NCBI GenBank assembly: GCA_005798445.1
Contig: SYJG01000329.1
Coordinates: forward strand, 1 to 64,000
DNA: 64,000 bases
Reading direction: 5' to 3'
Source of the DNA: Planctomyces sp.
Lineage (GTDB): Bacteria; Planctomycetota; Planctomycetia; Planctomycetales; Planctomycetaceae
This document shows positions 106-2,871 of the stretch, piece by piece (positions within the stretch are counted from its first letter, which is position 1; every line of letters begins with the position of its first letter). Below the pieces are notes generated by a model. The model saw only the letters and a program-made list of their open reading frames with translations, ran no database searches and was not told where the DNA came from. Position numbers and translations under genes: made by a program.

Positions 106-2871
106 TCAGAACCGTTGCGTTTGAGATGAGCGAGCGCCTGGTGTCAGTGGTATTAACGCCGCAATCGATCCCGGTTGACCTGGCAGACAAGTGGGAGGAC
201 TGCGCCGCGAAGTAGGTGGCGCGGAGAGAACTGCCGTTAACATGACAGACGACAGGCCCAATATCTGTGGCGCAGCGGCCGAGTTTGAGAGAGGGGTATT
301 GCTGACTGTGGGTGTCTCGCCTTCTGGCAGTGCAGCCAAATAGTCCTGCCACGCTTGATCAGCTTGAGTTTCAAGGCCACCGAAAGTGGATTCCGCCGTT
401 TGTATGGCGGTGTCAGCCGCAGATTGCAACGTGATGTGCGCGACGGCTTCAGCACCCGTCCAGGTCGTGGTTGCCAATGCCACAGCGGATTGCTCGGCAG
501 ACCACGCGGCTGATTCGGTGGCGTTCCAGATCGTCGTGGCGGCCGTTAGCACGCTTTCAAAAATGTCAGTTGCGGTTGAAACGGCCGTGTCACGGACTCC
601 ACGAGCCGTGCTTTCGACTCCGTCATAAATTGACCAGGCGGCACTTTCCGATGTGTTCCAGGCGGCTTCAGCGACGGCCATGTCAGAGTCGTATTGAGCG
701 CGTGCCAGCGCTTCGCCGCTGGTCCAGTTGTCGAGGGCCGTGTTGAGCGCGTTTTCGTGGTCGTTGGACGCGATTGTTTCGGCGGCGTCCCAATCGGCTT
801 CGGCCTCCTCGAACGCGGTGTCGTAATCCGCGAGGGCTTGGTCAACGTCCTCTTGCCAGTCGATCAATGCGGCGGCGTGAGCGGATTGAAATTCGTTCCG
901 AGCCGAATCGACCGTCGCATCCCAGGCGTTGTCCGCTTCGGTCTTGGTCGTTTGGTAGGCGGCCGATGCGATCCCTTCGGCGGTCTGCCAGTCGTCGTCG
1001 GCGGCGGCGGCGGCGGTTTCAAACTGTGACTGAGCGTAAGCTTCTGTGGATTCGTAGTTCGCTCGTGCCGGACCCTCAATGCCTTCGTAGAGGGCCACGG
1101 CATTGGCCTCGCCAGTCTCCCAGGCGGAGACGGCGGTTGACGCGGCGCTGAGAAATGCCGCCGCCGCGCCGTCGTACACGCTGTCCCAGGCCGCGACGGC
1201 CGCGTCCGCCGCGCCGCGATAAACCCCTTCCGCGAGGACTTCCGCCGCATGCCAATTCGAATACGCGAGATCGAGCGCCGCTTCCGCGTCGTCGCGGGCG
1301 AGCGACTCGGCGTCGATGTGGTCGTCAAAGGCTGACTGCTCGATGCCAATGAAAACGTTCCACGCCGCCAACTCGGTCGCAACCCAATTCGACGTCGCCA
1401 GAGCTAGCACCGATTGGAATTTGGCAGCGGCGGTCGCGAGCGTGGACGGATTCATTGCCGCCATCGGATTTGCCGTTGCCGCCATGTAGGCTGCCCATGC
1501 CGGAGTGACCGCATTCAAAAAATCACTATTCGCCCCATCGACTTCCGACGTGTAGTCGGCATACGCCTGATCAACCAGCGATCGGTACTGGTCCGCCGCA
1601 TCCGTGACCGCCGAGTCATAGTCGGACAGAGCCGTGGTCACGTCGGTCTCGTACTGATCGTCGAACGGAGCCATCGTTGTGTCGAATGCGTCCGCCGCGT
1701 CCTCCAAGTCCGACTCGAACTGGGCGTCGGCGGGAGCCATCGTCGTATTGAAGTCGTTTTCCGCATCCATCATGGCGGCGTCAAACGCGGCGTCCACGGA
1801 CACCATCTCCAAGTCGTAGGCGGCTTGCGCGTCATCCGCCGCACTTTGATAATCCGCCGCCGCAGGAATCATGGTCGCGTCGTACGCCGCAACGGCATTG
1901 TCCATCGCGACCGTGTAGTCGGTATCCGCCGTGTCCATCGCGGAGTCGTAGGTGGACTGCGCACCGGACATGGTCCAATCGTACGTCGTATTGGCGGTGT
2001 CGACGGCAGAATCGAATGCCGTTTTGAGGCGTGTCACGTTGGCATCATACGCGGTATCCGCTGCCGTGATGGCGTCATCCAACGCCGTTTCCGCCGAATC
2101 CATCGCCGTCTCAAACGCGGAATCCGCCACGTCCATCGCGTCCTGGTAGTCCGAGTTCGCGGTGTCCATCGCCGCATCGAACGCCGCATTGACGGATGTC
2201 ATCGCCAAATCGTAGGCGGCAGTCGCCGCGTTGGCCGCGTCACTGAGCACGCCGTTCGCCGTCTCCACTTCCGCCTGATAATCCCCGTAGGCATCCGAGA
2301 CCGTTGAGTCGTAATCGTTGTTCGCATCCTCGACAGTCGAGTTGAAAAACGCCCAGGCGGGATCAACGAGGCTGGAGAAGACTGCGTTCGCACCCTCCAC
2401 GGCCGACAGATAGTCCGCAGAAGCGTCTGCAATCGCCGACTCGAAGTCGCTGTTAACGCCGACCATCGTCGATTGATATTCGGAGATCGCCGCGTCAATT
2501 TCCGATTGTGCGTCCGCTGCTGCAGCATCGGCCAAGGCTTGCAGATTCGCGATTGCCGCCAAGTAATCATCCGCCGCGCTCAGCAAGGCGCGAGGCTCCA
2601 GCGATTCCACCGCACTCACAAATGAGTCACACCGACGGCGATGAGAGCGACGCCGTAGGGGGGCGGGCCTGACAAAGAAGACAGGCAAGCCAGGGATCGT
2701 TTCGCGAACGACGAGAGCCAAGGCGAAAACAGCATGACGACTCCTTCCAAGTGATGAGTGGTGCCATCGCAAAAAGCTCAGGCGGACATCGAATGGTCTC
2801 GCAAGAATTGAGAGCGAAGAAATGCTCTCACAGGGACGTGTTCGGAAACACAATGCCGTCCGGAACTGCAT
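106..2871 (-). CDS. Exported/surface protein made of tandem 11-residue (hendecad) repeats; planctomycete LEPR-type N-terminus. True start uncertain, probably near 2735 with a frameshift
   Basis: Long ORF; 'VESLEPRALLSA' near N-terminus; aromatic residue every 11 aa across most of the protein (e.g. DAAMDTANSDY QDAMDVADSAF ETAMDSAETAL DDAITAADTAY). Confidence 0.8.
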   Translation of the reverse strand: MQFRTALCFRTRPCESISSLSILARPFDVRLSFLRWHHSSLGRSRHAVFALALVVRETIPGLPVFFVRPAPLRRRSHRRRCDSFVSAVESLEPRALLSAADDYLAAIANLQALADAAAADAQSEIDAAISEYQSTMVGVNSDFESAIADASADYLSAVEGANAVFSSLVDPAWAFFNSTVEDANNDYDSTVSDAYGDYQAEVETANGVLSDAANAATAAYDLAMTSVNAAFDAAMDTANSDYQDAMDVADSAFETAMDSAETALDDAITAADTAYDANVTRLKTAFDSAVDTANTTYDWTMSGAQSTYDSAMDTADTDYTVAMDNAVAAYDATMIPAAADYQSAADDAQAAYDLEMVSVDAAFDAAMMDAENDFNTTMAPADAQFESDLEDAADAFDTTMAPFDDQYETDVTTALSDYDSAVTDAADQYRSLVDQAYADYTSEVDGANSDFLNAVTPAWAAYMAATANPMAAMNPSTLATAAAKFQSVLALATSNWVATELAAWNVFIGIEQSAFDDHIDAESLARDDAEAALDLAYSNWHAAEVLAEGVYRGAADAAVAAWDSVYDGAAAAFLSAASTAVSAWETGEANAVALYEGIEGPARANYESTEAYAQSQFETAAAAADDDWQTAEGIASAAYQTTKTEADNAWDATVDSARNEFQSAHAAALIDWQEDVDQALADYDTAFEEAEADWDAAETIASNDHENALNTALDNWTSGEALARAQYDSDMAVAEAAWNTSESAAWSIYDGVESTARGVRDTAVSTATDIFESVLTAATTIWNATESAAWSAEQSAVALATTTWTGAEAVAHITLQSAADTAIQTAESTFGGLETQADQAWQDYLAALPEGETPTVSNTPLSNSAAAPQILGLSSVMLTAVLSAPPTSRRSPPTCLPGQPGSIAALIPLTPGARSSQTQRF
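352..2511 (-). repeat. Protein-level tandem repeat, period 11 aa (33 bp), roughly 60 units, diverged
   Basis: Manual phasing of the translation; one visible one-residue phase break near 'NPSTLATAAAKF'. Confidence 0.85.

Follow-up and report, generated by a model that had tools for sequence, protein, structure and literature searches.

Architecture of the locus

We analysed the first 64,000 nucleotides (the window) of contig SYJG01000329.1 from a Planctomyces sp. genome (assembly GCA_005798445.1). At the edge of this contig, the minus strand encodes a protein consisting largely of aromatic 11-residue (hendecad) repeats. An earlier note, made from the DNA letters alone, had read it as an exported planctomycete rod encoded by the open reading frame (ORF) 2871..106, in which positions 352-2511 represent codons 121-840. 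Our analysis partly supports that interpretation.

The repeat is real. The autocorrelation of aromatic residues peaked at lag 11, with 48 pairs where 6.9 were expected (z=17.2; the highest of 2000 shuffles reached 18), and again at lags 22, 33 and 44, and Fourier analysis gave a peak at 3.67 residues per turn and none at 3.5. In total, 64 units of 11 residues could be phased, 31 in segment A (residues 132-472; window 1456..2478) and 33 in segment B (residues 485-847; 331..1419). Segment B is offset from segment A by one residue (353 = 32x11+1), a single register shift that lies in a linker around NPSTLATAAAKF (1420..1455). The aromatic residue every 11 positions and the roughly 60 units with one single-residue break reported earlier were thus both recovered.

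Positions a, d, e and h form a hydrophobic core, the canonical hendecad pattern. In segment A, position a is Y, F or L in all 31 units, d is mostly A or T, and e and h are each hydrophobic in 97% of the units, with Met or Val at e and mostly Ala at h. In segment B, a is W, Y or F in 25 of the 33 units, with tryptophans often spaced 22 residues apart; h is Ala in 31 of 33, and Glu is common at e. These counts bear out the division into a Y/F block with Met/Val and a W-rich block with Glu/Ala proposed before. The 33-nt units of segment A share a mean DNA identity of only 46%, indicating an old repeat kept at the protein level rather than a recent tandem duplication.

The suggestion of a long acidic rod agrees with the composition of the protein, which has 141 D/E against 12 K/R in 763 residues. 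Single-sequence AlphaFold models were helical over nearly their whole length, with a mean predicted local distance difference test score of 55 over 775 residues and of 68 when the second block was modelled by itself. At this low to moderate confidence, the single-chain models match the continuous helix that had been predicted and are consistent with a rod without proving one. A Pfam scan of the protein yielded no family above cut-off (the best match was Apolipoprotein, with E=0.14 and 12.3 bits where the cut-off is 90), and the ALF-repeat model was absent among its matches at E<=1. Searches of NCBIfam and the PDB with the protein returned nothing useful, a search of genome contigs with it as query found no relatives, and an Rfam scan of window positions 1-5000 gave no match.

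Both ends of the gene differ from those of ORF 2871..106. At the 3′ end, positions 1..138 belong to an IS30-type insertion sequence, of which they form the left end, and at the contig edge they extend as far as the beginning of its transposase (MCAQIK...). This segment has more than 20 matches in the window's own genome (G000), nearly all at contig ends, and copies with different flanks share the exact edge at 138/139. One copy (G000:C506) continues into MCAQIKFDERVRIEELRGEKFSQAEIARALRRDPGSISRELRRNEIG, which we read, without recourse to a profile, as the N-terminal helix-turn-helix of a transposase of the IS30 family. The apparent stop at 106 lies within the insertion sequence and was therefore rejected as the natural stop. 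Between the insertion and the last hendecad (139..330), no frame scores as coding. Given this missing signal and the position of the stop, the gene's own C-terminus is absent from the window.

At the 5′ end, DNA running from before the Shine-Dalgarno sequence to the LEPR motif is shared by the window, two copies in genome G007 and one in the sister genome G009; these and all other genomes compared are draft metagenome-assembled genomes. The start codon at 2871 was rejected because G007 does not preserve its frame in the upstream region. The four copies instead share the start ATG CTG TT(T/C) TCG CCN TGG..., located at 2735 in the window and encoding the conserved peptide MLFSPWLSSFAKRSLA, with a Shine-Dalgarno-like AAGGAG (2741..2746) that occupies the same place in the G007 and G009 copies. 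Differences ahead of the tract fall mostly at third positions (7-8 of 12-14 between the window and the others). In the window this start frame spans 39 codons before a stop (2616..2735) and is out of frame with the rest of the gene, where a LEPRALL motif (2581..2601) follows a basic N-terminus as SLEPRALLSA. This is the LEPRxLL-type N-terminus of planctomycetes, found as LE[PVT]R in relatives, although no curated NCBIfam model matched it in the window gene. The planctomycete origin claimed in the earlier note stands, and export is probable, since the motif adjoins a basic N-terminus as it does in relatives.

A run of C (CCC-G-CCCCCC, 2658..2667) marks the junction of the start frame with the LEPR frame. 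In G007:C202, the start is intact and its frame continues unbroken into SAPPQRRRSLCGRCDSFVSAIECLEPRTVLSAADDYL. The two frames disagree in the window, G007:C227 and G009:C36, joining at the C run in each. Downstream of the tract in the window, about 790 codons remain open, and differences from the G007 copy number 69 at third positions against 40 and 34 at the other two. The two G007 genes (C9 and in frame on C202, C10 and out of frame on C227) are near-identical stalk genes in one genome, and both contigs break inside the hendecads. In the sister genome, the start of the window gene and its W-rich block persist as decayed remnants on contigs G009:C36 and G009:C12.

A G/C tract at one site in LEPR-type genes

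We searched the genus by start peptides and N-termini irrespective of any tract, which yielded further LE[PVT]R genes. Eleven genes carry a run of 6-10 G or C (G7-G10, C6-C10) starting 65-72 nt after the start codon. Two of these are in frame, G000:C289 (G9) and G007:C202 (C9). The other nine are out of frame: the window (C6, interrupted, CCCGCCCCCC), G000:C366 (G8), G000:C165 (G7), G006:C92 (G7), G007:C227 (C10), G009:C36 (C7), G001:C208 (G8), G004:C23 (G10) and G008:C776 (G10). The window's own genome thus contains paralogues with G7 (off), G8 (off) and G9 (on). The gene at G001:C529, with a broken run (GGGGGAGG), is in frame, as are three more distant N-termini lacking any run (G000:C500, G009:C100 and G005:C187).

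A frame-setting tract that differs in length among copies therefore recurs across 11 genes, and slipped-strand phase variation probably acts there, as judged from length differences among gene copies in draft assemblies. The share in frame is indistinguishable from one third (p=0.23 for at least 9 of 11 off), as expected if tract lengths drift freely, and both frame offsets occur, which argues against a single programmed frameshift. Runs of at least 7 occur at a background of about 22 per Mb, an estimate from 93 kb of the genus in which two were seen. Runs of at least 10 C or G are rare, with about 50 sites in 12 genus genomes, yet three of them are at the tract site in LEPR genes. Most of these sites lie outside LEPR genes and some at contig ends, and they may include other switchable genes.

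Toxin-like domains in stalk relatives

Among stalk relatives at the class level, hendecads are shared and an LE[PVQ]R-type N-terminus is frequent. A profile built from four of them, with the window excluded, recovered the window protein at E=4.8e-15. Most of those with a readable C-terminus end in a pretoxin or toxin-like domain. A protein of 1245 residues from the same genus (G001:C208) has a C-terminal Tox-WTIP domain (E=1.2e-8, above cut-off). Larger relatives carry PT-HINT: G057 (5390 aa; 6e-16), G164 (2771 aa) and G071 (>10,000 aa), the last two above cut-off, and G039 (5455 aa; 8e-4, below cut-off), which also has an AHH nuclease domain (4e-13). Two matches in G021 fall below cut-off (Tox-MPTase4 at C40, 3.5e-4; Prok-JAB at C175, 0.011). 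In G128, a protein of 1202 residues from the same family, cadherin domains precede a Y-type and then a W-type block, the order seen in the window, and a zincin-like motif identified by eye (HETFH..E) follows the hendecads in an HExxH domain.

ORFs with HEAT repeats begin within about 50 nt downstream of the G164 and G071 genes. HEAT proteins are listed among immunity proteins (PMC3482391), and these ORFs are candidate immunity genes. More than 10,000 codons long, the G071 gene (G071:C1, 3910000-3929900) combines repeat domains, hendecads and PT-HINT in one ORF. In the window's own genome, a LETR gene with a G7 tract (G000:C165:477-4340), out of frame and not encoding a hendecad protein, has a pretoxin-like tail, recognised by eye, which matched no Pfam or NCBIfam family; a CdiI_3 immunity gene (E=1.2e-10) directly follows it. 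The tract and the hendecads thus overlap without being identical: not every tract gene is a toxin, nor does every hendecad protein bear a tract.

Interpretation and alternatives

We consider the window gene, with a probability of about 60%, to be the stalk part of a LEPR-exported, phase-variable, polymorphic-toxin-like giant surface protein that is now out of frame and truncated. Such a protein would start with MLFSPWLSSFAKRSLA, cross the C tract and the LEPRxLL motif and continue as a two-block rod with about 64 hendecads. By analogy with known systems, the basic LEPR N-terminus would direct export. RHS and filamentous-haemagglutinin stalks are thought to present effectors to neighbours (PMC3482391), and the rod, assembled on the cell surface, might likewise present a pretoxin or toxin domain at its end, as in intact relatives, from which PT-HINT could release the effector. 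Slippage in the G/C tract would shift the frame in or out, resulting in stochastic expression with the protein present in some cells only. The copy in this genome would be off by frame, its effector end lost to or displaced by the IS30-type insertion. The odd protein would thereby gain a use, with its rod keeping a toxin at a distance from the cell.

For the genus as a whole, we see about an even chance that its surface-protein and contact-toxin genes share one switch, in the form of a G/C run that lies 65-72 nt into the gene, past the start and ahead of LEPRxLL, and would gate the export of giant proteins, among them toxins carried by aromatic hendecad rods. This would connect Planctomycetota with slipped-strand phase variation at a single position common to many surface genes, and adjacent planctomycete cells within biofilms or reactors would not all display the same giant surface weapons.

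Several observations weigh against this interpretation. No toxin domain is present in the window copy itself, the gene lying at the contig edge with its 3′ end missing. The short, interrupted tract may also mark this copy as a pseudogene and not a live switch. Repetitive stalks inflate E-values, and the similarity between stalks is partly shared composition; the genomes compared are also drafts. Four genes of the tract survey (G001:C529, G008:C776, G000:C289 and G006:C92) are neither hendecad nor toxin genes, which ties the tract to LEPR-type surface proteins in general. Finally, a generic pattern of a G/C run before LEPR was not enriched across the family over a reversed-pattern control, and we accordingly make no family-wide claim.

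The alternative that survives best, although improbable, is that the gene has decayed into a pseudogene, with tract lengths reflecting noise from assembly or mutation. The frame offset, the interrupted tract and the insertion in the window copy would all fit decay, and the G009:C36 copy is clearly decayed. Set against this are the long open frame past the tract, with its hendecad register intact, the excess of third-position differences from the G007 copy, and the recurrence of the tract at one site in many genes.

Slightly less probable is a purely structural or adhesive secreted rod, a cell-surface fibre without an effector, in which case the toxin fusions of relatives would reflect domain shuffling of a generic stalk. 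That no effector was seen in the window copy, that cadherin domains also adjoin hendecad stalks and that some tract-bearing paralogues have beta-type repeats only are in line with such a fibre. The pretoxin or toxin-like ends of most readable relatives and the downstream HEAT-repeat ORFs, as candidate immunity genes, argue for an effector instead.

Programmed ribosomal or transcriptional slippage at the tract, by which the protein would always be made at a low level, appears unlikely. Polymerases and ribosomes are prone to slip on runs of 8-10 G or C, and the downstream ORFs have stayed open though out of frame. However, with both offsets and in-frame copies present, no one frameshift direction could serve all genes, an objection that leaves room for transcriptional slippage.

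Lastly, an amphipathic 11-mer helix of the apolipoprotein, synuclein or LEA type, lying on membranes or protecting against desiccation, as the earlier note had also entertained, is very improbable: the 11/22-residue periodicity and the weak Apolipoprotein match would suit it, but there is neither a Pfam family above cut-off nor a cationic amphipathic face, with 12 basic residues in 763, and the a/d/e/h pattern is that of a buried core with an aromatic at a, in the context of an exported protein.

Relation to known systems

Polymorphic toxins combine an export N-terminus, a repetitive stalk, an optional PT-HINT, a variable toxin and a downstream immunity gene (Zhang et al. 2012, PMC3482391). 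The stalk-gene family described here resembles them in its putative N-terminal export part, long repetitive stalk (present in the window gene), PT-HINT or toxin ends and downstream immunity candidates. It differs in that aromatic hendecads make up the window's rod in place of RHS, filamentous haemagglutinin or ALF repeats, and in that the window gene has a LEPRxLL-type N-terminus, a G/C tract after the start codon and no effector.

The window protein shares the a/d/e/h core and the 11/3 periodicity with hendecad coiled coils, but its units, about 64, are near-uninterrupted, with an aromatic at a and W/Y alternation in the second block, and its models are of single chains. As in the homopolymeric-tract phase variation of Neisseria, Helicobacter and Campylobacter, a G/C run lies in the 5′ coding end of surface-protein genes with in- and out-of-frame copies, whereas here the genes encode LEPR-type giant proteins of Planctomycetota and are known from assembled genomes. 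The G128 protein has the same two blocks in the same order and is 35% identical to the window protein over 281 residues of the first block without gaps; it differs in its cadherins before the stalk, its HExxH domain after it and its in-frame start, at which no C/G tract was noted.

In the open-licence PMC literature, we found no paper on LEPRxLL or on hendecads together with planctomycetes, and only passing mentions of phase variation in planctomycetes. If the interpretation holds, these genes would represent a phase-variable arsenal in a phylum for which our searches of that literature gave no report of one.

Upstream of the gene, positions 3016-3176 contain an imperfect inverted repeat of about 160 bp (GTAGCCCGACCCCTTGTGGGG...) with arms 70% identical, suggestive of a small mobile or hairpin element.
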